From the NCBI RefSeq assembly GCF_036785885.1, contig NC_092312.1, forward strand, positions 24,446,001 through 24,510,000: a stretch of DNA of 64,000 bases. The letters run 5' to 3'. The position numbers and the translations under genes are program-made. Shown here piece after piece: positions 6,380 through 39,231 of this stretch (position 1 is the first letter of the stretch; each line of letters begins with the position of its first letter). The stretch comes from Coffea arabica (lineage: Eukaryota > Streptophyta > Magnoliopsida > Gentianales > Rubiaceae). Below the pieces are notes generated by a model. The model had not been told where the DNA came from and searched no databases. It worked only from the letters and a program-made list of their open reading frames with translations.

Positions 6380-7030
6380 ACCCTGAAGCTGCTAGCATTC
6401 GATCTCCAGTCAATGTTTCTCAATCTTCGTTACACATGAAAAACTCACTAGTTTATTGTATTTGGTCTTTCTTTTAAGTGTAAAGGGACAACGCACTCCT
6501 GAAGTTGTTAACTTATGCGCTGCTAAACTTTTATGATCTATTCAACTTTTATGTATAAAGAAAATTGATTTGGTTGGAAGTCTTCAAATTGAATCTTAAC
6601 ATTGTTCTTGTTCACATGAATTCGCACTATAATTACCTTATTCCCTGGAGGGATAGCTTTCTTTGTAAAATCATGCTTGTATATATGTTGTCCAAAGGGA
6701 GAAGTGAAATACCAAGTAAAATGACAAAAAGGGGGCAGGGACAGTACTTAATCCCTCTGCAAATCAGCATTAGGATTTCCACCCGGTGGGGGAAAATTGG
6801 CCTATGGCAAGTGATTTAGAGTATCATCAAACCAGCTGCTATGGATTGTCATAAAAAGCATGTGATTTATTCAATCAACCAAAGTAAAAGCAATCAAGGC
6901 TAACCGAAAGAAAAAACGAAGAACAATATCATAAAAGCCATAGGGAATCAATTTCATGGGCACTAGAGGCTAAAGCAGCCACCTTGATCCTGTTATATGG
7001 AGCTGTAACTCCGAACTTGGCCTTCACAAG
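6380..7030. other. Intergenic spacer between NPC and the broken BAHD gene
   Basis: Holds the 3' UTR of the NPC gene (to roughly 6570, AT-rich) and the 3' flank of the minus-strand BAHD pseudogene. No other gene is visible. Confidence 0.5.
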
Positions 7031-8405
7031 CTAAGAGACTGTCTCCATGAACTCCTTGTCTGATTCAAGAGAAGTCATTATATGTGGTAGAAGGCAAATC
7101 TCAAAGTCCATGCTTCCACCTCCTTCAACTCCTGGACTCACAACCATTTTCCCATCGAATTTGTCTGCACGACCGGTTCGAACTGCTAATGGAATCCCAA
7201 GTCCAAAATCAATTCCGTACACGTTAAATCGTGGAGAGCCTGCCAAGAGTAATCTACTGGGATCGGGAGCATCACTACCAGATAGGATTGCCGATTGCAG
7301 CCATGATTCCATCTGCTCTTGTGATATTATGTAACCTATCTGATTGATCACTTCCTGGTGCAATAGCCATGCTGCCCATCCTAGGCCGTGTTCCAGTAAT
7401 TCACCACAGCCAGCTGTTGCTATCGCTGCTCGCAGATAGTTACCGAAGTAGTCCTCAGGCACTGGTGGAACTGACTTTGATCTTGCATTTGCAACCATAA
7501 CGAAGCTTGTTTTTCGATCTGATGGGAAGTTCCGAGCCCTTGTTATGCATCTCCAAAGATGAGCGGACACTGTCTGCAAGGAAGAAATCTCAGTAGCATT
7601 CCGCTCAGCATTTACTTTTGCTTTCAGCTTTCTCACTGTCTCAGATGAGAAATGAAATATTTTTTCCCTAATCATATCAGCTGGCAATATATCTGCTTCA
7701 TCTCTATTGATGATGACTTGATCATCATGGTCATAAATCAATGGAAGTCTGAGAAACGGATTATGTCGTCCCCGGGGAAACAGTCGATCATGTACTGGGA
7801 GCCTTGAGATTACACTAGTCTTTCCCTCCGCTTTGAATATCTCTGACCATGAGGTCAAGCTAGAAATGCCAGAGAGATACCATATGGTTCATGGAGCATC
7901 CAATGAAGATCCATCTATCAACTCGGTGACTTGAATGGTCAGCAAAGACTCGGTGTGACCATCATAGTTGATTGACCTCTCATGATCAAACAATGATCTC
8001 AAAATTCGGGGAACGTACGTCGTTGAAAGTACATCATCCATGGTCAAGTCCAATGATGCGAGAATAAATCGACCCCCAGGGCTTTTATTGCAATCGATAT
8101 AAATTGCCAATTCAGAAGGATTCTCATCTTTTTTTCTGCGTTACCAGACGACCTGCTAATGGATAGAAATGAACAAGGGTGAGAGAAAGTGATTCCTTGA
8201 GTTTCTGCACAAGTTCTTGAAGTTGGTTCTCATCATCGGTGTCAAATCCTGGAGGCTTTGCAAAAACGAAGCCCCTCTGCATATAGTTTGCAATGACCAA
8301 CATTACGTCCCATGGTGACGAGTAAAATGGTTGTTTTGACTCTTCCGGAGTGTATTTTGGTTTGATAAAACATTGAGACACATATTGGACTGTCGGAGAC
8401 TCCAT
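7031..8405 (-). pseudogene. BAHD acyltransferase pseudogene
   Basis: This is a close paralogue of the intact gene at 35681-37180; it starts MESPTVQYVSQCFIKPKYTP and ends EFMETVS like that gene. Breaks are visible by comparison with it. An extra A in the A-run near 8131-8139 shifts the frame. A base is lost near 7911, just before the HXXXD motif. About 12 bases are replaced around 7882, removing the G-D-G-T that holds the motif's aspartate. Further small insertions with a stop lie near 7860. The C-terminal half (7858-7031) is still open and keeps a DFGLG version of the DFGWG motif. BAHD enzymes transfer acyl groups from CoA thioesters to alcohols or amines and need the HXXXD histidine for catalysis. 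The copy lacks the 48-residue duplication of its sister. A Helitron end lies only 184 bases upstream of the start codon. Confidence 0.9.
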
Positions 8406-8541
8406 ACCTCTTAAACCTGTATCACTCTTGTTCCGGAGGAGTTGCCACAATTTCTACTTTGCACTTCTTCGTATTTAAGGTTCTAGCAAAATTTTGTATG
8501 GTGAGTTGGCTTTATTTTATTTTATTTGGTTTTATTTTGTT

Positions 8542-8588
8542 GTTATTTTCTAAATTGCGACGTGTGGGGCAGTGTCATTTATATTTGA
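8542..8588. repeat. Partial unit of the tandem repeat that the Helitron split
   Basis: The segment with TATTTTCTAAATTG and GTGTGGGGCAGTG matches the units at 27225-27330 and 27331-27412 (TATTTTCTAAATTC, GTGGGGCAATG). It ends in TTGA at 8588, exactly where the Helitron begins. The rest of the unit continues at 26318 on the far side of the Helitron. Confidence 0.75.
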
Positions 8589-8616
8589 CTAGTTTTTTAA
8601 GCCTCGCGCCCAACTT
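8589..8616 (-). other. Helitron 3' terminus (CTAG end with weak hairpin)
   Basis: On the minus strand the end reads GGGCGCGAGGC, TTAAAAAA, CTAG, then the host T. Helitron 3' ends carry a short GC-rich hairpin about 10 bases before CTRR. Here the stem is degraded: AAGTT can pair with GGCTT using two G-T pairs around a GC-rich loop. Confidence 0.75.
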
Positions 8617-8913
8617 GTGTTAATTTAATTTAATTGATAGCAGGTAGTTCGGTGTTAAAGATTTGCGTTGTCAAAATGTGACGAACTGTGTCAGGTTTCT
8701 GAGTGTGGTGGCAGGATTGGTGTTGTTTGTGCATGCATGGGTGCCATATATTTGCATTGAAGTTGACACTTGGCAGTTTGGGTTGTAGTCGTGCGACAAC
8801 TATTATGTTGTGTGTTTTTTTGTGTATCAGAGTGGAGGTTTTGTTCTATAAAAACGTGGAGTTTTGGAGTAGTGGTTCGTAAGCTTGTAATTTTTTTTTT
8901 TTTTTTGTATTAT

Positions 8914-9832
8914 TATGGAGATGAATCGTGTGTCTATTAGTCAATTAAATGATAATATCCATGCATGGGTTATTCGGGTTCAAGGGATTGTCTATTTAAA
9001 TGATGTTCAGGTGTCAGATGAGGTGTTACAATTATATTCTACGTATTATATAGGAAGTACGACAGTTCGTAGATTAACGAATAATTGAGTAGTTCTTGGA
9101 ACAGTTGCCTTCGAGTTAGTGATTACACAATATAGCTTTATTCAGTTGGTTGATCCATCACTGAGATTGCCAATTGATAATATATATAATTTTACTCCGT
9201 TTGCGAATCTGGGTTCCTTGAGATATTTCGGAGATTCGAGCTTAGGTATTTATTTGAGTTTGATTGAGTATATGTATATATATATGTTTCATTTAACAAT
9301 TATGGCTCTGTAACTATTTACGTTTTTGTTGTAGCAATTCTTGCTATTGTGATTTGAAGTCTTACCCTTGCAAATATTTATTATCGGAGGAAGATATATA
9401 CGGGTTCAAGAGTTTATTATACTAAATGAGGAGTATGTTTTATTTATAGAACATTTTTTAGTAAGTTTTTTTTTGTATTAGGAACATTTTTTATGTTCAT
9501 GTAATAATTATTTTTATTGTTTTTAGGATGAGACCAATGATATTTGCCATGTGGGAGGATTTTCTCGAGTCAGAAGGGATGCATCTTGTTCAGATTGCGA
9601 ATGAACATCCAGTTGTTTTAATCTGTAGGCCTAAAGTTAGTCGTTTTTATGGTGAATTGTTTATTTTATTTTTTTTCCATGCTTTTGATTAGGGTTGAAT
9701 AATTTTTTTTTAAATTGTTTCTTTGTTTTCAGGGGTGTCACTTGCTACACAGGAACATACCATTGTTATGTATAATGTCGATATTTCACGAGCTCGTGAA
9801 TTACACGAGTGGTACGAAGCCATGCCAGGAGA
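8914..9832 (+). pseudogene. RPA1-like remnant, opposite strand to the rest of the Helitron
   Basis: From the ATG at 8914 the reading starts MEMNRVSISQLNDN, then an OB-fold-like segment ending QLYSTYYIGSTTVRRL, followed by a stop near 9085. A second block at 9530-9655 reads RPMIFAMWEDFLESEG and VVLICRPKVSRF. A third at 9730-9832 reads GVSLATQEHTIVMY and then ARELHEWYEAMPGD. These are replication protein A large-subunit (DBD-A/B) features. The first and second blocks match the minus-strand RPA1 gene of this element (QLHSTYYIGNAWITKI; FTMWEEFLPSEG). It is therefore a second, diverged RPA1-like gene facing the first. It is truncated after DBD-B, with no zinc-binding C-terminal domain. Confidence 0.75.
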
Positions 9833-10225
9833 TGGGGGTAGTTAAATTGTACGAGATGTTTTGCCGGTCCAATGCTGTTGTTGGAATTATAGCTATGCAA
9901 TTATTGGTAAAAATGCTTTGAGTTGGTGTAGTTTGGTTGCTTGAAGGAGTTAGGCGTAGTTTAATGGAATGAGTTGTAAAATAATTCTAAGTTGAGTCAT
10001 GGCTGTTTTGTCGTATTTATCTTGTTGGTGTTCATAGCTTTTTTGGTTTAGTCTGTTAGGAGCAGTAAGTGTGTGTAAAAATTAGATAATACTGGCTTGT
10101 ATTCTATTTATCTTTAGCATTACTGTGCATTTCATATTTACTCAGAGATGTTTGTTACATTGATCAGGTACGAAAGTTGTGCTCTTTAAGCAAAAGTCCT
10201 AATTTATGTACATAAGGTAGTTTAC
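9833..10225. other. Helitron interior, nothing recognised
   Basis: AT-rich tail between the plus-strand RPA1 remnant and the duplicated RPA1 tail on the minus strand. No further gene or repeat is evident. Confidence 0.4.
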
Positions 10226-10430
10226 TTAGACAAAAGTTACTACATTGGTATTGGTATTTTTGGTGGCAGCGCAAATTTTTTCTACTTTGCGACGCTTCGT
10301 CGTAACTTCCGAGCTTGGATAAGGGAGGCGCTTTGACTGGAGCTGGACATTTTCTTCTTCAGTGGTAGTCTGAGTCGCAGGATCTGAACAAAAGTCTTGA
10401 TCTTTGTACATTATGTGGTCCACCTAAACA
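10226..10430 (-). repeat. Second copy of the RPA1 C-terminal tail
   Basis: Translates to an acidic stretch (TTTEEENVQLQSKRLPYPSS) followed by a basic TTKRRKVEK segment that looks like a nuclear localisation signal. It parallels the end of the RPA1 gene just upstream (STSEEEKGRLQSKHLLDPSS, then PKRHKP and a stop at 10478-10480). The two copies lie about 190 bases apart and have diverged, so this is an old tandem duplication of the last exon. Confidence 0.6.
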
Positions 10431-10824
10431 AAAGGTATCACATTAGTATTTATTTTCTTGATAGCAAGACAGGTTATTCATGGCTTATGACGCTTTGGTG
10501 TCATCTCCGAGCTTGGATCAAGGAGGTGTTTTGACTGAAGCCGACCTTTCTCTTCTTCACTGGTACTTTCACTTGCAGATGTGACTGTTAGTTGTGAAGT
10601 TGAGGTGTAGTTATCAGTAGTTGAAGCCGAGATAGCTATAGATCCCGATGCCTCGGATTCAGTATTAGAAAGATGGGTCGGATTGGCAATGCATTGTTGC
10701 GGTAATATTGGGAGGCATGCTACAATATTGTGGCGAGGGTTGTGTATGAACTGGACTGACCTTGTTGTATTTCTAACTTGGATATAGTAGTGAGTGTTTT
10801 GTAGCCTGTTATTGATGGTGGCTA

Positions 10825-12949
10825 TGACAGGTGTCGTGCCTGTGCAATAATAAATACCTGCTTAAGAAAAATAAATTTTCTGTGTATAGTAGTAAGCAGG
10901 GTCGAATCCACAGGGACTGGGAAAAATTCGATTCTTTTTAAATTCGAGACACGGGGGATTTTTATCAGATAAAACTAAAAATAAATAATTAAACAATTTA
11001 ACTAAAAATAATCAAACAATTTAACCAAAAATAAATAAATAATTAATACGAATGTAAATGGCAATTAAATAAATAATAAATAAATTCTAGTCAAGGATAC
11101 AACTACGTAGACACAGTCCATTCATCCGATCATTGATGCAAAGAAAGTTCACCTAATTTTATTAACAGGCTAGTTATAGTCGCCGATAAGCTCTAACGAC
11201 CAGCTTTTCCTTAATTTATTGATAACCAAGGTACGACCATTGATTACCCCTAACCAGGAAATACTCCTAGGTACGACCGTAGGAATTAATTTCCTAATTG
11301 CATTAAAAACTAGAAAAGCCTAACCCAAATTAATAACACGCTACGAGGGTTATTTAAATCAGATTGCATGTCCCCCTAGTATGTGAAAATACTAGTTGTC
11401 ACTAATATTAACCAACTAAACAATTACGGATTTAATTGATTAATTTGACAGGAGATTAAAAAGTCAAATTGCACATCGGGCCCTTGATATCCAATTAACA
11501 AAATAATCCCATGGAAATTAAAATAGAAAACATGCAAATATTAATAAATTAAGGAACACGTAAAATTAATTAGATCTCACAGATAATTGGGACTGCGTCT
11601 TCGCATTGATCCTTGACTAGAGAAGAAAATTAGCCACGCCTCATAAGAAAATCTTCACACAATTCAATTGAATTTAAAGACATCATCTTTCTTCGATAAT
11701 TGAGAGAGTGAATAACAAAGCTCTCGGAAGAGAATAAGAAAATTGCACACTAGAATTCAACAAACCAAAACAACTCCCTATTCTCTCCTCTGGAACATCC
11801 CTCGGAGAGAAAACTAAAAACTCCTCTATCCTCCTACGGAGCTTCTCTGGAGAGAAAACTCAAACTAGTCTAATGTCTCTTGAAGCTCGTCCGATTTCTT
11901 CATACATAAAAAACCAGCCAAAATGGAGACATCACCCCACGTCCTTCAAAGAGGTCATCATTTCTCTACACAATCATTTCCATTCCACTCAAAACAAAAG
12001 CAATTGTCGGTTTTCTTTTTGACCAAGTGCACACGTTCACCAAAAACCCTCTGTTTTGAAACTCGGACCGGACCGGCCGGTCGAACCGGGAACCGGCCAG
12101 GTAACCGGTCCGAGTCTTATTTAAAAACCGGAAATTTAAAACCCGGTCAAAGCCGGTCAAAAACCGGGTTTGACCGGAAAAAACCGGTTTTTCCGGTTCA
12201 ACAGTAATTTTTTTTAAAAAAAAATTCAAACTTTATAATATTATGTTTTGACCCTCTAAATTGTTAAAACTTATCGATATACCTCAAATATTTGATACTT
12301 TATAAATATTTTCCTAAAATTTGATGTTATTTTTCAATTAAACTCATAATTTTAATTCTAAACTTGTTAATATTTATTAAATAATATAAATTGCTACTTA
12401 ATTGTTCTAATTTCTTTATATTTTCTTGTTAAATATATTTGAAACATCAAATATATATGAATATACCTTTATTAATATCAATATATTATTAGATATTATA
12501 AATATAATATTTTAATTTTTAAATAATTTTTATTTATGACGTCATCCGGTTCGACCCCTATCGACCCCCGGTTGAACCCATTGACCCCTGACCCCTGACC
12601 TTGGCCGAGTCGCTATCCGGTCCGATTCTGAAAACATAGGCAAAACCACAAATGTGCAAAGAAAGCACACTTTAGACAATACAACTTATTTGCGGTCCCC
12701 ACCAACTTTGACATGTTGTCTAGCCAAATTGAATTCCCAAATGCAATTCCATTCTTCTACGTTGGTTTGCACCAAAATTGTGCAAAGTTTCACAATAATC
12801 TTCTCAAGAGGTTTCTGCTCCAATTTCTGAAATTATATCCAAATACCAAATATAAATATATATTGACAATTAAAGCAAATTAAAGCAATATTTGGCAAGG
12901 ATAAAAAGGAAAATTAACAATAAAATTACTAACAATTAACACCCTATCA
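10825..12949 (-). mobile_element. Solo LTR of a Ty3/gypsy-type retrotransposon
   Basis: The segment begins TG and ends CA and is bordered by a perfect 5-bp direct repeat GGCTA (10820-10824 and 12950-12954), the hallmark of LTR-element insertion. On the minus strand it runs from TGATAGGGTGTTAATTG to a 3' part resembling the U5 end of long-LTR gypsy elements (CCCTGTGGATTCGACCCTG near 10900-10925). No internal coding region is present, so it is a solo LTR of about 2.1 kb, including a nested element. The perfect target duplication suggests a moderately young insertion, younger than the Helitron it interrupts. Lineage (Tat/Ogre or Athila-like) is a guess from LTR length. Confidence 0.75.
12046..12640. 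mobile_element. TIR element nested in the solo LTR
   Basis: The left end (CTGTTTTGAAACTCGGACCG from 12051) and the right end (CCGGTCCGATTCTGAAAACA to 12635) are inverted copies. The ends are full of CCGGT/ACCGG words (12060-12200 and 12545-12625) around an AT-rich core. This is the pattern of a common plant non-autonomous TIR element with CCGGT-rich subterminal repeats. No clean target-site duplication was found. Boundaries are good to about 10 bases. Confidence 0.55.
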
Positions 12950-13270
12950 GGCTATGTCCAGCTAGTCTTCTACTTGTTCCATGCGTATGACTTCATGCTC
13001 TCTGAAGAATTGATTCAGCATAGTCATCTTCGATAGTGGCTGTTAGCAAACCGGTATCATCACATAGCTGGGTTTCAAAGCGCAATCTAAAAGTTGCAAA
13101 GTAGATATAGGTGAAATTGTTAGTAATAAATATGTGATTAGTTCGTAGCTCCGAAGTTTATATACAAGGAGGATTCATTACTGTTTGTTAAGAATGTAGG
13201 TGTAAGTTTTATAGCTGATACCTTGCGAGAGGTCTCGGATACGTCATTCGGCAAAAGAAACATGTGAAAT

Positions 13271-13910
13271 CCGTGTCGATATCTGCACCGATAGGCTTCA
13301 TACAAGTGGGATTGGGACAACTGAGGAAATAGTAACGCGAGTTGGTGTTTCGGATACGAATTTCTGCTTTGATCCAAAAGGGCTTTGTTTGCATATTTTT
13401 GTAATGAAAGTTAGGAAAAGTAAATTTTAAATTTAGTTTAGACATGGAGGTTAGGAAATTGACCTGTTGAGCAGTAGGGTCAATAGTATATATTTCTCGT
13501 AGCTGCAATGCAATTGGTGGATGGACTTGTTCATGAGCTTTGTCATAGAGTTTCTCTTGAATTAACTTCCGTATATAAGTAGCATTTTCAGCAATCCGTG
13601 TCGATATCTGCACCGATAGGCTTCACACAAGTGGGATTGGGACAACTGAGGAAATAGTAACGCGAGTTGGTGTTTCGGATACGAATTTCTGCTTTGATCC
13701 AAAAGGGCTTTGTTTGCATATTTTTGTAATGAAAGTTAGGAAAAGTAAATTTTAAATTTAGTTTAGACATGGAGGTTAGGAAATTGACCTGTTGAGCAGT
13801 AGGGTCAATAGTATAGCTGCGATTCAATTGGTGGATGGACTTGTTGATGAGCTTTGTCATAGAGTTTCTCTTGAATTAACTTTCGTATATAAGTAGCATT
13901 TTCAGCAATC
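13271..13910. repeat. Tandem duplication, period about 325 bp, of an RPA1 exon
   Basis: 13271-13595 and 13596-13910 are nearly identical from CCGTGTCGATATCTGCACCG to CATTTTCAGCAATC. The second copy lacks about 10 bases near 13815, so it cannot keep the same frame. The high identity marks this as recent relative to the rest of the Helitron. Confidence 0.9.
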
Positions 13911-15582
13911 CTGTTAGTAAGAGAGTGCATATTAGGATAGTACTAATAATAGGTTAAAGGTAGAGAATATTTATCTTACCATTGCCTCAATAGTGCAGCC
14001 TGGGGGATTTCTAGATTGAATATTATGATAGAAGTTGCCAGAGTCCCAATAGATATAGCTGAGAAATTGTGTAATTATTAGCAACACGGAAATTTCTACA
14101 GAATGTTTTATCGTAGTGCTATTTGAAAGTAGCTAGGTCTTACTGTGATGAGTGTTGAACTTTGGTCTTGCTATGATAATGATTGGCTGGTGAGGTATCA
14201 AGCTCTTTAATTGGGCACCTTCAGAAGGGAGGAATTCTTCCCACATGGTGAATAATAAAGGTTTTTCCCTGTTGCATGAAGAAGTTATAGAAAGTTTAAA
14301 GTTTTTGTGTTAGTTAAAAATGTTTCTATGACAGTCATCATCTTACTCTTCATTAAGAACAACAAATTCCTGAATTGGAACATAACGGTTGCCTCTGGGA
14401 ACAGTGCGAGAAGGTAAGGCATGGATGATGGCACATAAGATACCTAAGAAAAATCATATATGCTGCATCAGTTCAATAAAGTTTAACAGGTAAAAATTAG
14501 AAAGTAAGGTGAAGAGAGCTGTGTTGGCATGCTTATTCTTGTATTGTCATCTTCAATGAAGCCATGCAGCTCGCGAAATTGTGCAAATTGGTAGCAGTGT
14601 TCACAAGAGAGTGTATTATCAGGTGCAATAGCATGGATGAAGGTTCTCTTTGATATTGCCAGTTGATAGGCCGATGAAGCCATGAAGAATGGACTGGCAA
14701 TCTTTGTTATCCAAGCATTTCCAATGTAATAGGTGGAATGCAATTGCAAGATTGGATCAAGATCTTCAATATCGCGATCATACACAGAAGCTTGAATTGT
14801 GTTATTCTGTTTTTTTTCTTGTATGAGAAAAAATAATTAGATTTACTGTAATATAATTTCGTAGGGCCAAGAAAAATGCTTGCTGGAAATCGTATGTAGT
14901 AGTAAGAATTTGAGAATGTGCACTCACTGCTGCATCTGCGAAGATATATTTCTGATATGGAGTGCCAGTGTCTTTGCCATAACGAATAGGGCTCTTTTCT
15001 ATAATAACAAGCTTTGCAAACCAGTTTCTGTTCGCGTCTGTTCGGTCGGGAATGAGAACGCACTTGGTTTCTATGTTTGATCTGAAATTTTCATGGTTCA
15101 TATAAAGTAAAACTGATAAAATATCGCATATTATAATTTGTAGATTTCTAGATAGGTCAAGTAAATAACAGACTTAAGCACTGTAAAATCATAAGATACC
15201 TGGCAGTAGTCATTGCAAGTGTTTTTGCAATGCTTGTCAATAGCAGATTGCAGTAAGTTGCTTATTTTGAAGTCTGGAAGATATTATGCAGAATTTCATA
15301 TAAATGACAGTGAGGTGAAGAAAATAACGAGGAATCAAATGTTTATGGTAGATGTTTTTATATTTTATATATAAGCATTAGCTTGAAATATGCTTCTGAT
15401 GCAAGATAGATTGATGGAAATTGGAATTATATGAGAGTTGACAGAATGGAAGTTGGAGACGTAAGAGTATAAGGGAATAAGAATAAAAGACTTACCTTTA
15501 CAGGTAAAAAAGAAGGCTGCCGTGAACTGAAGGATATGGGGGAGGCTTCACATAGGATAGTAGTTTTCTAATATGCTGTTAA

Positions 15583-15584
<2 letters not shown>

Positions 15585-15630
<46 letters not shown>
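15585..15630. repeat. (AT)n microsatellite
   Basis: Uninterrupted AT dinucleotide run of about 46 bases inside the Helitron. Confidence 0.95.
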
Positions 15631-15632
<2 letters not shown>

Positions 15633-15639
15633 ATATATA

Positions 15640-17150
15640 CATAGACATAATAGCAAGGTTACTTCATGCATGAGTGCACCGCATAGAAAAAAAAATGACA
15701 TAATGATGGAATTATAGAATTGTGTGCTGTGGGAAGAGAAGGTTACACGTAGCTTATCAATTATATGCGTCATGCAAGTAGCAGTACAGGTGTTGGTAAT
15801 ATGAGCAAGTGAGATGTCTGATGTATTATAGGTATGACTAAAGCAGAGTTTTGTAATGCTTCTAACTATTATTCGTTTATATCATATACCTGTTTTCTTC
15901 GATGGTAGTTGAATTATGTCTTTAGTGCGTTGAAGAGAAGCTTCTGAAAGCAATGAGAGTGATTGATAGTAGACTCTGGTATTCTCTTTGTTGAAGTTAG
16001 CATTGGTTTTTGCTTGTTTCTCAGAGGTTGTATAAACTTCTGATAGGCGTGGGATTGGTTGCAAAATGGATGCCAGGTCAACAAGCATATTCGTGCTTTC
16101 GTGTCTGAATTGCGCAAAGCCTTTTATGGATATCTTTGAATACCTTTTTGCAAAGTTTTATAGAGAAGTTACTTTGTACTTGATTGTCTGAACTATATTT
16201 AGCTGCATTAGTCTCTTTTATACGTAAGCTAGGACATAGTTTTGAGTGATTAAAAATAAAATTAAATGCAGCGCAAGAAAATATTAGGAATTTAATGTGC
16301 CACTAGATAGACCTAAGAATCCGAGGGAAGAGTGAATATTTAACCTCATGCAACGTAAAAATAAAAGTTTCTTTGTTGTTGCAGTGATTAGATTCGTTAA
16401 CTGAATCAAGAGACAGAGTGATCAGATTTTTTAATACAAAAACTGAGGATCCGGCCTTCTCTAATGTAAAAATAAATATTTCTATGCTGTCTTGGTGATC
16501 AGATTTTGCAATATTTCTACTTTTTTGCTTAACAGATGACAAGCTCTCTTGCTTTTCTGCGAAGTCTGAATCTAAGTGAGAGATAGAACGATCTTTTCTT
16601 TCATGTTTCGCCTTGAAATTTGATATTTATGCAGTAGGTTAAATAATGATAATTGTTATTATGATTGCATTTGATAATTAGAAAGTCATCTTGTATAGGA
16701 CGTATAGATGTACCAGTGTATGTATATAGATATATGCATTTAATGTAGAATGAAGATCAACTGATTCTTTAAAGACGTTGGATGAAAAAAATGTCAGATG
16801 TGTAAACAAAAGCAACCATAGTTTTTCACTACTGTGTTACCATATAAGAATATAGGTTGTTTACAATATGTATGGGTTTAAACTTTACAAAAGATTAAGT
16901 CACACTGGAATTACACTGTTCATGTAAATTTATGAAAAAAGCGATCAATAATTTTGGAAGCAAGAACCCGACAACTTTGATCTCCTTACTGGGAAGAAAG
17001 CGGTCATATTGCTAGTTCAGAGCTAAAAATGAAGCATTGATTGCTCATAATATCAGTACATCATAAAACTGTTTGTCTATATTTTGACTAAAAGAAAGGT
17101 CATAGATGAAATCTAGGAAAATGTTGCATTAAACTAATTGAAATCGTGAG
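15640..17150. other. Helitron interior with no recognised gene
   Basis: Short minus-strand frames occur at 16117-15882 and 16542-16303. They may be the 5' portion of the RPA1 gene or an unrelated leader, but I recognise no domain. The second frame contains two similar ~30-residue segments (each with FIFTL), so a small internal repeat is likely. Confidence 0.4.
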
Positions 17151-17205
17151 ACCAGACGAAGCCGCTGGAGAATGCAAAGAACAAAGAAAACCTGGGACGG
17201 GGAAA

Positions 17206-17530
17206 GAATCTAGAGGTCTCTCGTACCCTCAGGTGGTTATCAAGAGGTTTGATCGAGCAGGGATTGACCGTACTGGAAATTCTTTTCTAACTAAATTTGC
17301 AACAATGGTTGGCTGATTAAGGCACAAGAATTTTGTTCAACTTCGAGGATGGTGCTGTGAAGGATCAGAAGTAGTTCTGATCTATGACCATTTACAAAGT
17401 AGTAGTTTGGACGAAGTCTTTCACAAGAATACAAGTTCTGCAATTATCCTCTTTTGAAAGCAAAGGTTCAATATAGTCGTCAGAGTTACGTTTTCATACC
17501 TGCATAATGTGGGAGAATTCATAGGGATGT
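17206..17530 (+). pseudogene. Fragment of a lectin-type receptor-like kinase
   Basis: The + strand reads PQVVIKRFDRAGIDRTGNSF, then FLTKFATMVG, a stop, RHKNFVQLRGWCCEGSEVVL, IYDHLQSSSLDEVFHKN, a stop, and KQRFNIVVRV. This is the N-lobe of an L-type lectin receptor kinase domain, resembling the class called receptor-like kinase S.2. The invariant Lys block (VVIKRF) and the hinge are visible. Catalytic-loop HRD and DFG motifs are absent because the piece ends near 17530. Stops show that it is not a gene. It lies inside the Helitron and opposite to its coding genes, as expected for captured host DNA. Sequence 17540-17770 may belong to the same or another capture but is not recognisable. Confidence 0.75.
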
Positions 17531-17775
17531 GAACACTTGTAATATAGCTTATTTTGTGGTTGAATTGGTGGGGGCGTGTCAAGGAAAAAAAGTACATAGA
17601 GAAGTGGAAATTCCTGCAACTTTTAGTTATAGTGATGAAGACAGAGACTGAACGAGTGGAAGAAGATTACCTTTGCAAGAGTGGTAATTGGTACATCATG
17701 AAAGTGGTGAAGGAGGCCTATGTAAGCTTTGTAAGTGTGCAGAGCCAACTATTGCTATCCGTTTAACATGATCAT

Positions 17776-18125
17776 TTAACAGTCTGATTTGCTCCAGATA
17801 TGTGTTGATGTCTCTCGCATTGGAATTGTCTTCACATTCTTGTAGAACAGGGGAATATGTTTTCTAAACACTGGGAGGAAAAGATTGAAACCAGTAACAT
17901 ATCTCATTCCAGGGATATATAATAACATTTCAGCTATCACAATATGGTCGACCTGTTTTTGTTGAAGTTCTAAAATTTTTCTTCCTCCTTCACAATTATT
18001 ACCAAATGCTGCGTGGGAAATCACATGACCGATTAAAGTTTGAAGATAAGGCTAAACATCTAGCTCACAAGATTCTTCCAGCGAAAGTTTTTCGTCCCAA
18101 CTTCTCAACATCTCACTGTCCAGTT
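17776..18125 (-). pseudogene. Fragment of a CYP72-clan cytochrome P450
   Basis: The minus strand reads SEMLRSWDEKLSLEESCELD, V, a stop where the family has Trp, then PYLQTLIGHVISHAAFGNN, CEGGRKILELQQKQVDHIV and LLYIPGMRYV. This is the C-to-F helix region of CYP72-clan P450s, whose consensus has a WPYLQ block, an ISRTAFGSSYEEG block and YIPG. Heme-binding and K-helix motifs are missing, so only about a fifth of a P450 is present. The frame decays after YIPGMRY. It is a captured, dead piece inside the Helitron, next to the receptor-kinase piece and on the opposite strand. Confidence 0.8.
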
Positions 18126-19452
18126 ATTAGGATCCCCCAGAAGGCGCAACTTCTCTTAAGAAGCTTCAACAGCTCTCTAGGGTAAGGAATGGAACTTCCC
18201 GGCACGCAGGAAAGAGTGGTTGAGTTTGAGCCTTGAGTTTATTGTACGACCTACGTCCTTCTCTTAAGTCAGTGCCAGAGAGATTTGAGTTTCTAGTCTG
18301 TTTTAAGACATTCCGAGCATCAAGGCAGGTGCTAGAAAGCCCTCCGCCCTTCTATGGCTTATTCCCTTCCGATCCAGAAATAGCTAGGGCCGATGGTTGT
18401 GCTTCCCCTGCCTCCTCTGCTTCCCCTTTATAAAGGGGGAGGAATCTCGGGTGTATGGCTGATTTAGAGGTTGATATTTCGTAGGAGGCAGTTGACTTTT
18501 TCCAAGCCTTATTCTCAGCTGAATCTAGTTTGAGATCCTTCAGGGGATAAAAACCTTATTGATGTTAATTGAGAAGTGTTGCGTCCAAAGTCGCCCTAAA
18601 AGCAAGTGATACGGAGGATGAGAATCTATCACATGGACTTTTACCCTATCTTTCCCGCTGCGAGTTTGTTGTCTATGTGTTGATGCTCTGGTAAGCACGG
18701 GGCGAAAGCCTCAACCTCATCATTTTCATTCTTTCAAGTGGAAAGCTCACGAGTTCATTTCACAGATCAGAATCAAGCCGGTTCGTCAAGCAGTCGACCA
18801 GGCCAGGGGCCAGATATCTTGAGAATGGAGCTACAAAATCCTAATGCTGAAGGTCAACCTATCGTGCGATAACGCGGCTTACTTTCATTCGGCCTCATTG
18901 TCCGGCTCACTTAGTTGTCCGAGGCAGATCCCTGCTATTAACGTTAGGGGTAGAGGCCCACCCCTTCACGCTCATGTCACGTCAAGCTGCTTAATTCAAT
19001 TCTATCTGCACCTGACACCAGCAAGATCAATCTCTTTCTTACTCATCCATTAACAAGGCAAAAGCAAGGTCCTTGAAAATACCTTTTGAAGTTGGGGTTT
19101 GAGCTCCTTAGTCGGTAAAACAAGGAAGAAACCTATGTAGTGGGTTCGACTCCCACAGGGTCATCCAGTGGTTGATGGTTCGAGGTTCAGACGCATCGAG
19201 CTCAAGCTCCTTAGATTTACGGATTCGAAAGGGGCCTAAATCCAACAAGAAGAGAAGGCAGGGTTCGGTGTTTAAAAGGTGGGGCTTAGGGGTTCAAGTA
19301 TCTCCATTTGTTACGACGACACCAGATCAGAGCGAGAGACGAGAACTGGATAGTTTTCTCACTGAAGTCGAAATAGATGGCCTGTTTAGTAATTAGAGCT
19401 AGCTGGCACATTTTCTCCTATTTAGGGGCCTAGTGAAATGTAGCTTTTCTAG
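18126..19452. other. Organelle-like (probably mitochondrial) DNA segment
   Basis: This block is visibly richer in G and C than the DNA on either side and has the texture of plant mitochondrial intergenic DNA (CTTCCGATCCAGAAATAGCT, AAGGCAGGTGCTAGAAAGCC, GGGGTAGAGGCCCACCCC). It contains a tRNA-like 3' half near 19138-19167. An open frame at 19172-19396 (SSSSLDLRIRKGPKSNKKRR...) does not match a gene I can name. Its edges coincide with the P450 piece on the left and the GTD-domain piece on the right. The mitochondrial origin is inferred from composition and style, not proven. Confidence 0.5.
19105..19167 (+). other. tRNA-like 3' half, probably non-functional
   Basis: GTGGG-TTCGACT-CCCAC forms a perfect T-arm (5-bp stem, 7-base loop), followed after eight bases by CCA. 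AGTCGGTA upstream resembles a D-loop. I could not close an acceptor stem or D stem, so it is a remnant or a t-element rather than a tRNA gene. Confidence 0.35.
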
Positions 19453-19640
19453 TATGGGATTTCAGCCTAACTTTTGCTCATTTGCACAGTAGCATTTTTT
19501 CCTTGTAGGCATCATATCGTAGATGAAGCTTCACTGGCAGTAGAAGAAGAGGCCTCTCTGTCTACTTCCAACTGATTGTAAAGTTTCTGTAGCAGTTGTT
19601 GTTGAGCGCAGAAGATTTGCTCGCATGCAGAATGGCACTA
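19453..19640 (-). pseudogene. Fragment of a GTD-binding (DUF593) domain protein
   Basis: The minus strand reads CAQQQLLQKLYNQLEVDREA, then SSSTASEASSTI, a stop and CLQGKNATVQMSKS. This matches the start of the GTD-binding domain, the coiled-coil domain of plant myosin-binding proteins of the MyoB/FLOURY1 family, whose consensus has LQKLYNELDVEREAS and then LRLQGEKAAVKME. Only about 60 residues remain and stops interrupt them. It is a third captured host gene piece, adjoining the organelle-like block. Confidence 0.72.
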
Positions 19641-20315
19641 CAAACTCTATACTCTGAATGAAGATCCCGTAAGAAGGATAGCAAATAACATATTGGTCAG
19701 GATAAGTTTTTTTTTTAAGAACAAGAAGTGAATGATATAGGTTAACACGTTATTTTTCGAGCATCAAGATATATACTTAACTTTAATAGTTACTACATGC
19801 TTAAACTGGACAACTGGTAAAAGAACAGTTACATTGTCTCAGGATAGACAAATCACAGACATGACTTAATACGAGGATGCAAACATTATTGTAGTCTAAA
19901 ATCATTCTTCAGTTGGAAACTGTTCATTCTGTTCAAAGTTTTCTCCTTTTTGTGCATATTCATTTCTGACTGAGCAACATTTGCGCTCTTAAAAATAGGG
20001 GCATATTTTTCAATGCCACTTCATTATGTCTACATAGTTGCTAGATTCCCTACACACATTGTGATAGTTATCAAATGAGGAAGAAGATTTAATGTAACGT
20101 TTCTATGCTGACCAGCTTGTAGAGAATGAGTTGTCAGTCTCCCATGACAAGGTATGTAGTCACAAAGCGACTCTAGTATTCAAGAAGTACTCAGTGCCCA
20201 ACAAACAGATTTTAAAAGCCAATTTTAACTAGAAATGAATACTAATCAAGAAAAACTCCTTTTTATACATTTTGGAGACTTTTTGTTCTCAAAGCAACAA
20301 GCAATGCGTAACACT
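19641..20315. other. Helitron spacer downstream of RepHel
   Basis: AT-rich sequence between the captured pieces and the RepHel stop codon. No gene was recognised. Confidence 0.4.
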
Positions 20316-23300
20316 TAATGCAGACCAATCATAGACAAGATTTCTTTGTATACGACATTTTTTGTGTAGTTTGTGTGCGCAGAGAAAAAAGTTAGTCGTC
20401 TAATAAGTACTTTCACATTATTTTTTGTTTTTCCTCATGATAATGCAACATATAATTGGCCGTGTGAAAATACAGGTTCTTTTAGATACAAGCCAACATA
20501 ATCTAATGTTTGCCCTTGTGTTTTGTTAATTGTCATTGCGAAGCATAATCTTAAAGGGAACTAAATTCTTTTAAAGAGGACGGAGCAAAGTTCATCATCT
20601 GAACATTGTAAAGAAATTCGAGGTATGAAAACTGACTTACCTGTATATGCAGCAAAAGAAATATCTGCTTGAATGACATTATTTTCGAACTCTTTGCATA
20701 TGAGTCGTGTGCCATTTGAAAGCTCTTCAGTTGGATTTATATTTTGGATTAACATAACAGGACAGTTCTTCTTCAATTTTAATTCATGTGAAGGCAATCC
20801 TTTTGGTGTAAGTGTATTTAGAAAATCTTGGTTCTCCAGTTGGTGCGATGTATCAAGAGCTTCATCAAAACTTAGATATGTTTTTTGTGGACTTGGGAAT
20901 TTGTTGATTAGCATATCATTGATTTCATGCACAAAATCATTCCGCCTCATCAAGATAGCTCTATTAACAATTGACGATAGATCACTGTTGAATGTCTCCA
21001 TATCTGGGAATACCATATTTACCAAAGTTTCCACTGATGAAGTATCGTGTACAAAAGGTAGATTAATTGGTGCTGGGATCTTAATTTCGTTCATATAATT
21101 TGATATTTCTGTACCATCACCAATTCGAAGTAGAAAATTGCTGAAGTTCTTATTCGAACGAACTCGCATATTTTCCTTTAGCCTTAGCTTTGTTAGTTGT
21201 TGCCATATAGGTGACATGACCAAGCTTGCACTAATAATATCTTCCTTATTGCCTTTTGTCACAACTGGTAATGTTTGGCGGAAATCTCCTTCGAAAACCA
21301 CAGTTTTACCACCAAATAACAGGTCGCGACTAGTGATATCTCTCATCATTTCATCAAACCGTTCGATTGATTTTCGTTTTGCCATACTTGCCTCATCCCA
21401 GATAATAAGCTTTGCATCTCTAATCAACTGTGCAATTGTAGTTTGTTTTCCAACATGGCAGCTCTTGGAATCATCATCATACAGGGGTATTTTAAATCGC
21501 GAGTGTGCAGTACGGCCTCCAGGCAAGATTGAAGCTGCAATACCCGAAGTTGCAGTTGCAAGTGCTATGCCACCAACCGATCTTATTTTTGCAAGAAGGG
21601 CTCGATATAGAAATGTTTTCCCCGTACCTCCTGGTCCATCCACGAAAAATGATGTTGAGGTATTACGTGTAACAGCATTTAAAATCTGTTCATAGGCATT
21701 TCTCTGATCATCGTTCAGTTGATCAATTGCTTGAAGGTCACTCTCATCTACAATTATATTCCTTTCAGTTTCTATATCTCTTGTTACCATTTCTTGTTGG
21801 GATTGTTGGATTAGTGGTGTGTTCAACTGATAATCAGCTAAACTCTTTCCCATTGATTGTAAGTAGTTGTCAATGCATTGTAGTACTTTCACTTCTACAA
21901 GATGAGTTGGGATTGAAGAATCTCGTTTTATATCTTTAGATAGGAAGTCTTAAAATTGTAGCCATAGTTGAGCAGGGTTCTTTGGGCTGCAATAAACTAA
22001 GATAGCAGCAAATAATTGGCGCAATGAATTGGGCATTTGGTAGGCAACTGCTTCGGATAAACACAGCTCGGCTGCATTATCTGTTTGTAATAGTCCCATT
22101 ATATCCGCAGCTTCATGGAATGAAACACAAACACGTCCATTTACAGTTCTTAAATCTGTAAATGAAGTTGGCTTCCTCACATGCATCAACAAAATTCGTA
22201 AATAATATCTTTCTCCTTCTGATGGATGTGCACCTAAAATACGGCCAATGACTTCCCTTTGCTTGTGTTGTTCCCAAATTTTTGATTGTTGATTCCATCT
22301 GAAGTATTCAGGAAATTGTGCGTACACACAATTCAAATTCTTTGCATAGTTGTCATACTTGTTCATGGAAAAGAATTCTGTTAGCATGGTTTTCTGTAAA
22401 GCTTGATTTTTTACAACACTATGAAGTGAGCTTTTTTCTGGAAATGTACTGGCTGTTTGTTTTCCAAATGTACTTGTAAGGTCATGACAGATGGATGTAT
22501 TTGATTCAAATCGAAACCAAAAATTCGCCACATTGCTTCGGGAGGGGATACCCATCTCACTGCAACATAATTTTTTATTTCATCCACATTGTTATTTGTC
22601 TCAATGTCACTCAATTGATACAAAACCCTATCATGTCCTTTGTATATATACTTGTATATATATTTGACAGCTTGAATCGTGGAGCATATTTCAACATTAA
22701 TATGACAATTAAATTTTACTAAGAGGTAAGGACAATAAGGCACTACCCAACGATTATCCAGATAATGGCCACGTACCTTAACTTTCTTCTTGTCATTTCG
22801 ACGATGGTATAGCAGATATGAGTTGGTTGTATGTATCGTTGACACACAGAATTGTTTGGGATATCAGTCTTTGCAACCAACATGCACACGCGGGATTCAT
22901 AGTACCACAAGGACCATGCATCATGTGTTTAACAACAAGAGTATGTAAATATTCGCGCTCATCGATATCAGGTAACTCGACACAAACAATTCGATTATAA
23001 GTTTTAGGAGAATACATCTTACTCCCCTGCTTTAGAATAATTAAGAAGTGGGCATAAGGAAGACCTCGTTTTTCAAATTCAATAACATACGGTATACGCT
23101 GCTATTTTTCTAAAAATATTTTTCTTGAAAAGTTCATTTTTTAATTGCTCTAATTTTGCTCTGAATACATGGGAAACTAAATCCAGGCGATTCTCAACCT
23201 TATCAGTTTAAGAAGTAAATTTTTAATTTCAGGCCAATTTCGATTACAAGTTATTGTTAAAAAAATGTCTGGTTTTCCATATCGTTGGACTAACGACATT

Positions 23301-25225
23301 GCATCCATGTAGCGACGCCTCATATCACGAGAGCCTCCAATGAATGATCCTGGAAGAATTATCCGTGTTCCAATATTGGAAGATGAAGATTCTCCTTGTG
23401 AGAGACTATCTATAAGACTTTGATATAACTCCGTTCGAAGCTGTGTCTGATTGCCATTCAGCCTATAGAAATCTAACCTTGTTAATTCGATTTTCACATA
23501 CATATCTACAATGTACTGTTGTAGCAGTCTCCCGATATGCAATAGCATGGAGCTAATTACCCGAATTCTCAGCATTCATTAATTGATCTGGTGTAGTTCC
23601 AGCACCGGGAGCTAGCTCAACTTCTTCCTCACAAGAAGCTGCCCCATGCACATTTGGAGTTCGAGCAATGCGTTTTATACTCTGATGCCAACCTAGTTCA
23701 GCACTGGCAAAAATGAGTGGGTATTGTAAGGGATCATAACAACTAAAGTAATGCTTCATAATCTGAGTTTTTCCATTTTTTCCATAAATCTGAATATGTT
23801 TTGACGTCACATGCTCATTATCACAATTATCTGTTCAAATAGCACCAACTTGAGATACAGTTGGTTTATTGAATACTTTTTGATCAATTGCAGGGCTAGA
23901 TTGCAGTACTATTTTATAATTATCTATGTTTGGTAGATTTTGTAAGCCTCGGAAAAACGTCGAATAAGGATTAATCTTCAAGATCCCTTCAAGTTTAGTA
24001 ATTAGGCTCTGCTGAAATCTATTAGAGATGGATAACCGATTTACCGTTTCATGATCAGTATCAAAAAAATATAACTGCACATTCCTTGCCTTTTCGCCAT
24101 CATTAGGGATTAACTGATTTATAAAGTGGTACATTTGACCTTGAATTCTAAAGGTGTATATTCCATTATAAGACTCATTTAATGATTTGTCACAGTTCAC
24201 TCCAATAGACATGAATGCAAACATGTTATTATAACTTCTAACACATCTGCGGAATTCAATAGCTTCTTCAGAATCCTCAAGATACAACATCATCAATTCT
24301 CTTGGCATTTTAGTAGGAAGTAATTGGGTTTCACCAAAAGAACAGCAAAATCCAGGTGGTTCAAACTGAAATTTCTTTGCTTTACAATGTTGGCAATCCG
24401 GAATATTTGGTAATATATCAGGCTCAGTGGCGACGACGCTTAATGGATCCGTTGCCAACATCTTACGTTGTTCCTGCCTTGCATCACTTCGTCGAACTGA
24501 TCTACACTTTTTGCTTGTTGGTGTAGACAAAACACTACCGCCGGCAATGATAGGCCCTGAGCATGCATCTCTTGAATAACCAGCAATACTACTGTTAGAA
24601 GTCGATGGCAAAGCTGTTGATTCTACGTGCGTTTCTTCTACATATTCATGCATTCGTCTAACTGATGTTTCTACACAATCTTGTCTTGTTCTTTTGTTAC
24701 TTGCATGACTGATAGAACTACCATTTGAATGCGAACAGATCGATCAAACATGATGTCCATCTCTATTGTTTACTCCTTCAGTATCGATACTGACCATACT
24801 CTTATATCTCAATTCCACATATGAAGGGCCGCTGGAAGGTTGCTCGATAGGTACAGAAAGTCTTGTTCTAGCAGCAGTATCTAAGGAATAAATATTTCAC
24901 TAATCTTTGTATTAGCATTATCAATACATCTAAAGTCCAGCATTTCTCATACCAATCGTAATTTTCTGAAACCTCGACAAATCAGCAGAACAGAAGCATT
25001 ATCAGGAAAGAGTGATATATGCTAAATACTCCAAGATAACTAATACATGAATTAATATAACATAGTATTCGTATTATGCACAGCTCACGTGTGCTACGTA
25101 TATCTATAACCATAGCACACACCTCGGTATTCTCTAGAACTGTCACTAGCACGCTGCTGTCGTCTCCTCGCATTCCTCTCTCTAGTCGCTTCTTCCAAGC
25201 TTACATATTTCCGTGGACGACCCAT
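20316..25225 (-). pseudogene. Helitron RepHel (rolling-circle Rep plus PIF1 helicase), decayed
   Basis: Exon 1 (25225-25123) begins MGRPRKYVSLEEATRERNAR, an AT-hook-like start, and ends at a GT donor. The next exon starts near 24880. The central Helitron-like N domain is seen at 23575-23180 (GGSRDMRRRYMDAM, PDIFLTITCNRNWPEI). The HUH nuclease site near 23060 reads KRGLPYAHFLIIL, where active elements have HxH. The two-tyrosine motif is KYIYKYIYKGHDR near 22640. The helicase (21892-20316) shows Walker A GPGGTGKTF, Walker [40 protein letters not shown] and LYVALS. Several frameshifts and in-frame stops split the reading, including two stops in the last 80 codons. The protein would nick, unwind and transfer single strands during rolling-circle transposition. 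Confidence 0.9.
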
Positions 25226-26282
25226 TAAAGAAACTCAGCTATACACAAGTAAGAAGGTTTCAATAAGAGTAGTACCATAACTTTTGATTCACAGAACCAC
25301 AAACAAAGCTTACTCCAATGCGCAGGCTCCATAAGAATTGAAAGGAAAGGAGCCGAAGTACAGCATATAAAATACCAGTCAGATTCTAATTTATATAAAC
25401 CTCTATATAAACCTCAATGATTAGAGAACAGACATGCATGACAATCAACAATAGCAGAATAATACAAGACCAATTATACCTTATATCTAACACAAGACCA
25501 GTTCAAAGTACCGAAGATTAGGAGAGAGTCCCAAAACCGAGACTAGTGGGCATTAAGTCTCACAGGATCCAGAGAAAGGGATTGAATCAACAAAATCAAA
25601 TTGGCCTTGGTGGAGGGAATTAGATATAAGATAGGTATATGAAAAATAAAAACGCGACCGAATTAACAAAATAAAATTGCCCTTGGCGGAGGAGATGGAT
25701 ATAAGATGGGTATATGGCAAACAAAACTGACGAGGTTGGTATTCCAAACTTTGCTGATCACAGGAAAATTGAAGATTTGGTTTTGCACAGGCTAAGAAAC
25801 ATACGAGACACAGTAATGAGATTGCAAAGCCTTCGTGCAGCTATTCTTGCACTCTTTCCAGAACACTTAGATTCAACTATGAAGAAAGACATGGTGTAGG
25901 AGGCAATTCAGTAGGAAGAGACAAAGGAAAAAAAAAAGCAACCGGCAAAGAAAGCTAAGAAAAGAATGAGAGGGTAATGGAAATTGCCAAGCTTTCTAGC
26001 AGCGGTTCTTGCACCGTACCATAATCCACCGCTAAGCATGTCCCTATTTGAGGACAGCACGTGGGGTACGAGCAGAATGGAACGGATGGAAACAAAGCCA
26101 CCATGCGGACACCAGCGAATCGAAAGCCATGCAGACAGCTGATAACAGCGAACTCACCACCCACAACAACTCCACGTGGATAGCAACAAATTTCCAGCAA
26201 AGCCACTACCACTGAATGGCACAAGACCAAACCGCCCCTCAAGTTCACACAAATCGCACTATAACCAGCCCATTTACACTGT
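25226..26282. other. Helitron 5' leader region
   Basis: Holds the RepHel promoter side. Two imperfect copies of a ~65-base block lie at about 25580-25642 and 25654-25716 (AACAAAATCAAATTGGCCTT / AACAAAATAAAATTGCCCTT). A plus-strand frame at 25714-25899 (MANKTDEVGIPNFADHRKIE...) has a leucine/arginine-rich helix-like stretch and a lysine-rich tail beyond a stop. I do not recognise it; it could be a fourth captured fragment. 25960-26280 is richer in G and C and has no frame of note. Confidence 0.5.
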
Positions 26283-26317
26283 AGCAATCCCAACTTCCAC
26301 CTTTAGTATAGTAAAGA
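26283..26317 (-). other. Helitron 5' terminus
   Basis: On the minus strand it reads TCTTTACTATACTAAAGGTG from 26317 inward. TC plus a TATACTA-AAAG-rich start is typical of plant Helitrons. The next plus-strand base is T (26318). Confidence 0.85.
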
Positions 26318-27420
26318 TTTTGAGTCACGTGGATACTTTTTCAATCCGTACATGTGGGTAGGGCTGTCAATAGGATTGAACTGGTCCGACCTCAGCCTAT
26401 TTGACCTGAAAGAAAAGGGGTCGAGCCTAGTATAATTATGTAGCGGGCAAAATTTAAATCTTGATTTAACGTCCAATTAAAATGTTGTTAGCCGAGATTG
26501 GGCCTCTATAGGCTCAGTCTGATTAAAGTCCAACCTATAATTATATATATTTTATTTATATTTTGATATGTAATTGTGTATATATATATATACACTCCCT
26601 AATGTATATAAACATAAATGCATTATTTTTTTAATATGTGATGTATAATTAGATTATTAGTAATTAGTGTTGATTTTGAAAAAACTTAGATTCATTAAAT
26701 AAATATATTTAAAGAAAAAACCTATTAAGAGTCTATGGACTAATGAAGATTTGGTATTTTCAAATCCTACCAGGAGCAAATTGAGAAGGTTATGGAGAAG
26801 TTTCAACCTTTGATGATGCATTAATTGTTGATCATATTTTTTTTAATTATTTTTCATGTATTTTAAAAGCATTAGACATGATTATTGTTGAAAAACTTTT
26901 GGTTTATGTACTTTTAATGAAGTTTTTACCATTTTATGCATAGTTTTAATATTGTAGATTATAAATTAACTTTACTATTTAATGGTTATAGTAATTATAT
27001 TCAGAAAATTAAAGAGTAATAAGTGAGTTTGGACTAAATCTAACTTAGGTTCAATGTTTGAATGTTTTGTGATGCAAATATGAACTTCACATATATTAGT
27101 TTGAAATTCATGACCTTAATCCCAAATGTCTTTATAATTAAGTGAGTCGAGTCTACATTTGTTAAAATTTGGCTTAGATGGCCAATTGACAGTACTAATG
27201 TGGGGGCAATGTTATTAATGTTGATTTTGAGGTGTCGATTTTGAGTCATGTAGATATTTTCTAAATTAATACATGTGGGGTAAAGTTTTTTTTTTTTGGC
27301 AGAAATGTGGGGTAATGTTGCTAATGTTGATTTGGAGTCATATGGATATTTTCTAAATTCGTACTTGTGGGGCAATGTTATAAAAGTTGTGGGGCAATGT
27401 TATAAAAGTTGATTTTGAGC
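26318..27420. repeat. Tandem repeat array (unit about 65-105 bp), interrupted
   Basis: Units share TTTTGAGTCAYGTGGATATT, TTCTAAATTCGTACATGTGG and GGCAATGTT(N)AATGTTGA. One unit is split by the Helitron (8542-8588 plus 26318-26358) and again by a hAT-like element (26359-27197), resuming at 27198-27224. Units 27225-27330 and 27331-27412 are whole. The last holds its own 22-bp duplication (GTGGGGCAATGTTATAAAAG twice at 27367-27411). Confidence 0.8.
26359..27197. mobile_element. Non-autonomous hAT-like element
   Basis: The left end TAGGGCTGTCAATAGG is the imperfect inverse of the right end CCAATTGACAGTACTA. The element is flanked by the identical 7-mer ATGTGGG (26352-26358 and 27198-27204), extendable to 8 with one mismatch. 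Short inverted ends beginning TAGGGCTGTCAA with about an 8-bp duplication fit hAT elements. The 839-bp interior is AT-rich with no transposase. Confidence 0.7.
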
Positions 27421-27874
27421 AGTGTGTTAGCAAATGTAGCTAGTCATATACTCATATGTCAGAAAAGGGGTTACATGGATGGTTTATTGGTTAGACTGAC
27501 GAAGAGATGATTGAGCCAACGAATTTAGAAAAACATGTCTAATTTAGAACTTATAAAAGGAAATATATAAATATTAATAAAAGGCTCAATTTTATTTTAT
27601 CATACTTTTACATATATAAATAATTATTTAAAGATTAATTATTTTATTCATTAATACAACAAGATTTTGAGAAAATTTTTTCAATTCTTTTTATTATCTT
27701 ATTTTAATATTATTAATTCTTTTTATCATCTTATTTTTGCCTAAAAATAAAATAGTTGTTTAAGTACTCAATTATTGTCACATCATGGTTACACTATTAA
27801 TTTGAAAGTTGAAGTGATTAACTTACAATGAGAAAGTAAACAAAAATTTTTAAGGAGACATTTGGCCAACAAGT

Positions 27875-37180: not shown

Positions 37181-37217
37181 TCTTTCACCTGCGCTAGTCA
37201 GCTAGTCTGAATTTCAA

Positions 37218-38380: not shown

Positions 38381-39231
38381 CCTATAAGTTTTTAAAGTCA
38401 TATTTGATAACTCAATTCAACATTTAAACTTAATTGATTAAGATTTTAACATATTCAAATGTGTTTGATAACAAAACATTAAACATCTGAATTAATTAAG
38501 TGGCATTGAATTTTCTAAAAAAAATTTGCTCTTAAAAATAAGTGATAAGTTATTCACTTATTATTTAATGTGATATACATTCAAATGTGTCAAATTTATG
38601 CCTTGTTTGATAACTCAATTCAGCATTTAAATTTAACAGATTCAGATCTTAACATATTCAGACCGTTTGATAATAAAAAATTAAATATTTAAATTAATTA
38701 AGTGTCACTGAATTTCCCAGACAAAACTTGCTCCCAGAATTAAGTGACAAGTTATTCACTTATCACTGAATATGATATGCACTCAAATGTATTAGATTTA
38801 ATTTAACAATTCAATAGTTTAATAGATTTAGATTTTAGATTTCAGTTTTATCAAATGCACCCTTAGTATTTAATAATTAAATAACTTAATGGATTAAAAC
38901 TTATGATTTTAGATTTCGGATTTCAATTTTATTAAACGCACCCAGTGGTTTAGAGTGTGTTTGATAAAACTGAAATTTGAAAATTGAACTATAAAATCTA
39001 AATCCATTAAATTATTGAATTGTTAAGTATTAAATCAAATACATTTAAGTGTATATCACATTCAGAAATAAGTGAATAGTTTATCACTTATTTTTGAGAG
39101 CACGTTTTGTTTAGAAAATTCAGTATCACTTAATTAATTCAGATGTTCAATTTTTAGTTATTCGTCTGAATATATTAAGATTTAAATTGATTAAGTTTAA
39201 GTGATTAATTGCGTTATCAAACAGGCCTTAC
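38381..39231. mobile_element. Fold-back/MITE cluster of three related arms
   Basis: The arm 38597-38862 (TTGTTTGATAACTCAATTCA ... TTTTATCAAATGCACCCTTA) is repeated as a reverse complement at 38948-39231, ending TTATCAAACAGGCCTTA. A further partial direct copy lies at 38381-38590. Arms share ATTAATTAAGTG, AAGTGATAAGTTATTCACTT and similar words. Two inverted ~270-base arms around an ~85-base spacer make a long hairpin. The ends (TTTGATAA... / ...TTATCAAA) are typical of a widespread plant MITE type. It ends only ~205 bases before the AAE19 start codon. Confidence 0.75.

Follow-up and report, generated by a model that had tools for sequence, protein, structure and literature searches.

Can both ends of a Helitron be established from a single sequence? 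Helitrons leave no target duplication, and their ends are therefore hard to prove. We examined this question in a 64,000-nt stretch of Coffea arabica DNA (contig NC_092312.1 of assembly GCF_036785885.1, positions 24,446,001 to 24,510,000; hereafter the window), where a Helitron of 17.7 kb separates the two halves of one unit of a tandem array, and other units of this array stand nearby, unfilled. The original prediction described a complete Helitron whose empty site can be read within the same window, and we found the flanks and the repeat that it quoted exactly where it had placed them. We are confident in the following account: a plant Helitron with TC and CTAG ends inserted on the minus strand between the A and the T of one array unit of about 60 bp, upstream of a BAHD acyltransferase gene, with no bases gained or lost within the unit; its RepHel gene has since decayed, the element has probably received a 2.1-kb insertion, and the array a hAT-like element.

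The ends can be read directly. On the minus strand, the element opens with TC at 26317 (TCTTTACTA) and closes with CTAG at 8589 (...GGCTTAAAAAACTAG), which gives the 5' TC and 3' CTRR termini of a Helitron. It is bordered, in the same reading, by an A before the 5' end and by a T after the 3' end. Two reports list TC, CTAG and an A/T target among Helitron features (PMC2267711, PMC4778049). Using the word frequencies of the window, TC together with CTAG is expected by chance with a probability of approximately 0.0008 over the three placements described below and two orientations, or approximately 0.0045 if CTRR is substituted for CTAG.

The flanks carry the second line of evidence. We searched the window with them in 240-bp tiles on both strands. 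The best match of the left flank was the array, with a score of 43 versus 30 elsewhere (2094 tile scores). Two ungapped matches of the right flank (41 nt), 27239-27279 and 27331-27371, are each 80% identical to it. The joined flank scored 52 against the array and at most 32 elsewhere (2082 tile scores), and its alignment to the unit contains three single-base gaps, all away from the junction that it crosses. This alignment was the check proposed with the original prediction, and its outcome agrees with it. We then used a phased test, in which a 60-bp unit was built from the array alone and the phase was taken from the claimed junction, so that it tests the junction rather than discovers it. 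The anchored left score was 41 at 8588, versus 29-32 at 8586-8587 and 8589-8591; the anchored right score was 42 at 26318, with 40 at 26319 and 30 at 26317. None of 3910 positions sampled outside 26250-27480 and 8480-8640 equalled either score (sampled maxima 27 and 14). The flanks of the element thus join into one repeat unit related to 27198-27420, as had been claimed. This phasing also bears on whether 8589-26317 is a composite, its ends coming from two separate Helitrons that are adjacent, nested or truncated. The 17.7-kb length, the passengers, a probable nested insertion and the presence of similar pieces on both strands would suit such a layered history. A single end-to-end insertion should leave flanks that complete one unit in phase; both flanks do so, and we regard a composite as very unlikely.

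The array itself is less simple than had been supposed. It had been taken for one intact unit; we find about three diverged units, with a 22-bp inner duplication and a poly-T stretch, and an 839-bp segment lies between them and the right flank. This segment is framed by two copies of ATGTGGG, and its terminal inverted repeats (TAGGGCTGTCAAT / TAGTACTGTCAAT) are imperfect; by the usual rules for such elements, it is presumably a hAT-like non-autonomous one. If it is skipped and one copy of ATGTGGG is kept, the array continues with one single-base gap, and hence two transposons seem to have entered one short array 41 bp apart.

How precisely does the repeat fix the insertion point? The dinucleotide GA occurs both at 8587-8588 and at 26316-26317. 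Because the left flank and the right end of the segment share this 2-bp overlap, there are three placements that reconstitute the repeat to the same score, 52, and 8589-26317 is picked among them only by the known rule of TC and CTAG ends with an A/T target. The same overlap is what one would see if a 17.7-kb segment had been inserted by repair at a 2-bp GA, carrying Helitron genes by chance. TC and CTAG ends in the orientation of RepHel, next to an A and a T, are not expected from such an event, which we consider exceedingly improbable. The repeat, moreover, fixes the insertion point modulo one unit, and the gain or loss of whole units is compatible with a tandem array. Insertion may accordingly have duplicated or deleted whole units of the target (about 60 bp, or some multiple), since with a 60-bp tandem unit such changes leave an identical junction. 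Helitrons are not known to make a target duplication, and no mechanism is known for one of 60 bp. Two reports (PMC2267711, PMC4778049) describe their insertion between an A and a T, and we judge a whole-unit change to be highly unlikely. Finally, the unfilled units are paralogous to the interrupted one, the right flank differing by about 20% from two of them. That the element entered between an A and a T and duplicated no target is hence observed within a 2-bp GA slack, modulo one unit and on paralogous units. The "internal proof" that had been announced for it was overstated because the rule, not the repeat, chooses among three placements, because whole units may have changed, and because the copies are paralogous.

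Several observations weigh against the account we favour. When junction pairs were scanned freely against the raw 223-bp array, 8588/26318 did not stand out: 444,059 pairs exceeded the threshold, unrelated pairs scored up to 71 versus 52 for 8588/26318, and the local maximum near the junction was 57 at 8585/26316, with 52 at each of 8586/26316, 8587/26317 and 8588/26318. Such scans discriminate poorly, as the right flank alone yields about 45, and the phased test does better; they were set aside, one run having also masked the array poorly. Helitrons carry a hairpin 10-12 nt upstream of their 3' end. Here, the palindrome TTGGGC-gcgag-GCTTAA, eight bases from the end and with two G.T pairs, makes a weak hairpin that is no better than shuffles (z of +0.61 as DNA, -0.71 and -1.03 as RNA). 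Within the element, the sole RPA match, to PF08646, reaches 18.7 bits and lies under the Pfam cut-off of 28.5; two further pieces, 14483-14836 and 8918-9313, match no Pfam family and are candidate RPA-like pieces by our reading. The collections searched for further members of the Helitron family, which were of prokaryotes and viruses, yielded none, and such collections say little on a plant element. In the viral contigs, this includes the exact patterns of the 5' terminus and of the repeat unit, each with no match. Lastly, the 5' end differs from the 5' pattern of the maize HelitronFinder at 4 of 16 positions (PMC2267711). Because of these mismatches, and because 252 of the 63,984 minus-strand positions of the window match that pattern equally well or better, the 5' end, to judge from its sequence, is not of the maize HelA type. 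Separately, a peptide pattern from the helicase open reading frame (ORF) retrieved 2 stretches in the viral contigs and 22 in the genome contigs, and none was confirmed.

Does the element encode what a Helitron should? We examined seven minus-strand open frames between 24743 and 20561. Six of them match the bat transposase Helraiser (Helibat1, PDB 7lcc) in order, at residues 125-254, 424-541, 582-652, 661-800, 815-956 and 1029-1412. Pieces of both the HUH Rep and the PIF1-type helicase of RepHel are therefore present, collinear with Helraiser and oriented as the ends predict. The helicase part retains the Walker A motif GGTGKT with its Lys, and both catalytic Tyr are kept. The first His of the HUH motif (H593 in Helraiser) is replaced by Tyr in GLPYAH. 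The reading frame is also broken. The frames of the six pieces (2, 0, 0, 1, 0, 0) imply three changes, and in the gap between the second and the third piece frame 0 is interrupted by four stops and frame 2 stays open, a pattern that we read as two more changes. A stop at 21950 splits two pieces in the same frame, and a further stop, at 23835, separates the first piece from the open stretch 23553-23834, for which a Pfam search gave no match. Introns could account for some of the frame breaks, not for the change of His. Mutation of the corresponding Helraiser residues (the HUH His, the Tyr pair and the Walker A Lys) is reported to abolish transposition (PMC4778049). The intact RepHel frame and HUH motif of an autonomous Helitron are thus lacking. 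Because RepHel is frame-broken and its HUH His is lost, the element, called complete in the original prediction, is so only in its structure, and is predicted to be too damaged to move itself.

The ends, the flanks, the coding relatives and the decay can be seen in the sequence; the order of events and, by analogy with Helraiser, the route of insertion we infer from them. The HUH Rep nuclease would have nicked the DNA at the 5' TC, the helicase would then have peeled one strand off, CTAG would have been the site of the second nick, and the freed strand would have been joined to the DNA of the AT target. After insertion, the RepHel gene would have decayed. The Helitron probably received the 2.1-kb insertion, and the hAT-like element would have landed in the array at a distance of 41 bp from it. 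Among the titles and abstract openings listed by literature searches, none describes a tandem array that reveals the empty site of a Helitron, which is not a claim that no such report exists. An insertion into a tandem array makes both Helitron ends checkable from a single sequence, within the limits given above, and such a check could serve for genomes without a second haplotype.

The element shares with Helraiser the collinear Rep and helicase pieces, both catalytic Tyr, the Walker A Lys, the TC and CTAG ends and the A/T target. It differs from it by its broken RepHel frame, the Tyr at H593, the weak 3' hairpin and further pieces that may be RPA-like. Like the RPA-carrying plant Helitrons of PMC4683698 (rice Mothra context), it has RepHel pieces, possible RPA-like pieces, a gene fragment and a CTRR end; it is set apart by its 17.7 kb, the opposite orientations of the possible RPA-like pieces and the probable nested insertion. 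With the maize HelA-type Helitrons (PMC2267711), it shares TC/CTAG ends, A/T flanks and an internal gene fragment, whereas its 5' end departs from theirs at 4 of 16 pattern positions and its 3' end, by reading, is without the CG-AA-CG hairpin pattern. The Helitron is an ordinary element of a well-known type, and its insertion site is a tidy teaching case.

Table 1. Features of the Helitron locus (positions in the window).
Feature	Position	Strand	Evidence
Helitron	8589-26317	minus	17,729 bp; termini and flanks read directly, flank phasing
5' terminus TCTTTACTATACTAAAG	26301-26317	minus	read from sequence
3' terminus ending CTAG	8589-8613	minus	degenerate 17-nt palindrome at 8597-8613
Left half of interrupted unit	8541-8588	plus	array matches, phased scores
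Right half of interrupted unit	26318-26358	plus	array identity, phased scores
Remaining array, unfilled target copies	27198-27420	plus	~60-bp units, diverged
hAT-like non-autonomous insertion	26359-27197		839 bp, between right flank and array
RepHel, PIF1-type helicase part	20561-21949	minus	PF05970 E=2.8e-72; 7lcc 1029-1412, E=1e-69
RepHel piece	21950-22579	minus	Helraiser 815-956; in-frame stop at its end
RepHel piece, both catalytic Tyr	22411-22863	minus	VKYIYKYIYKGHD; Helraiser Y727 and Y731
RepHel piece, HUH motif	22793-23101	minus	reads GLPYAH
Helitron_like_N (Rep) piece	23177-23575	minus	PF14214 E=5e-31; Helraiser 424-541
RepHel N-terminal piece	23835-24743	minus	Helraiser 125-254; end stop in frame of 23553-23834
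Possible RPA-like piece (weak)	13209-13911	minus	PF08646 18.7 bits at 13209-13622
Candidate RPA-like piece	14483-14836	minus	no Pfam family
Candidate RPA-like piece	8918-9313	plus (opposite orientation)	8891-9088 and 9089-9313 without above-chance Pfam match
Receptor-like kinase gene fragment	17182-17454	plus	PF07714 E=2.3e-6; PDB 6cth E=2.7e-7
GC-rich passenger	18050-19420		46.5% GC
Likely nested insertion	10829-12949		~2.1 kb, flanked by GGCTATGAC / GGCTATGTC
BAHD acyltransferase gene copy	7014-8419	minus	PF02458 E=3.6e-37 for 7031-7888

The remaining contents of the element are varied (table 1). In the test for RPA, chain 4gnx_C, which we take to be RPA, was matched at E=0.38 only. The two candidate pieces resemble each other: 8918-9088 on the plus strand and 14483-14836 on the minus strand share 14 of 35 residues (E=9e-9 for one comparison). 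RPA-like genes are reported from several plant Helitrons (PMC5148889, PMC4683698). The weak RPA-like piece contains a tandem duplication (13268-13597 and 13593-13911, about 325 bp, 95% identical), a recent event within an old element. The likely nested insertion is bordered by an exact 7-bp repeat, GGCTATG, at 10820 and 12950, or by nine bases with one mismatch when read by eye.

The kinase fragment, for which the best PDB chain is a lectin-type kinase (6cth), reads as a passenger, captured or inserted. Next to it, the GC content of 18050-19420 contrasts with 37.6% in 17460-18050 and 35.1% in 19420-20500, and the segment, perhaps of organelle origin, is reminiscent of plant mitochondrial DNA. 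The presence in the Helitron of about 1.4 kb of mitochondrial DNA beside the receptor-kinase fragment, at 17.1-19.4 kb, seems to us rather doubtful; if it were true, organelle-derived DNA would be carried by the Helitron from place to place in the nuclear genome. Exact patterns of this passenger had no match, one stretch in the viral contigs and another in the genome contigs, and a search in distant mode found none among plasmids, which say little on a plant element. Rfam and tRNA searches of the window returned nothing, nor did 17000-20000 at E up to 1.

Outside the element or at its edge, a scan of ten ORFs gave two matches to the BAHD-type Transferase family, two to Phosphoesterase (PF04185) and three to parts of an AMP-binding enzyme, as would suit DNA from a plant nucleus. 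The start codon of the BAHD copy next to the Helitron is at 8405, and the 3' end of the element lies 183 bp upstream of it. The first frame of this copy stops after 93 residues. A paralogue at 35664-37191, with 76-81% DNA identity, lies within an open frame of 506 aa. The copy is apparently frame-broken, a sequencing error being possible, and the Helitron 183 bp upstream may be the cause of its decay. Similarity between the two copies ends at 8419 and 37191, and neither the flank search nor the self-comparison of the window showed the array upstream of the paralogue. Elsewhere in the window, a palindrome of about 620 bp at 38604-39223, 73% identical to its own reverse complement and perhaps a foldback element, adjoins a 202-bp tandem repeat at 38403-38790, and at 57785-58655 a 216-bp unit is present in four tandem copies that are about 90% alike.

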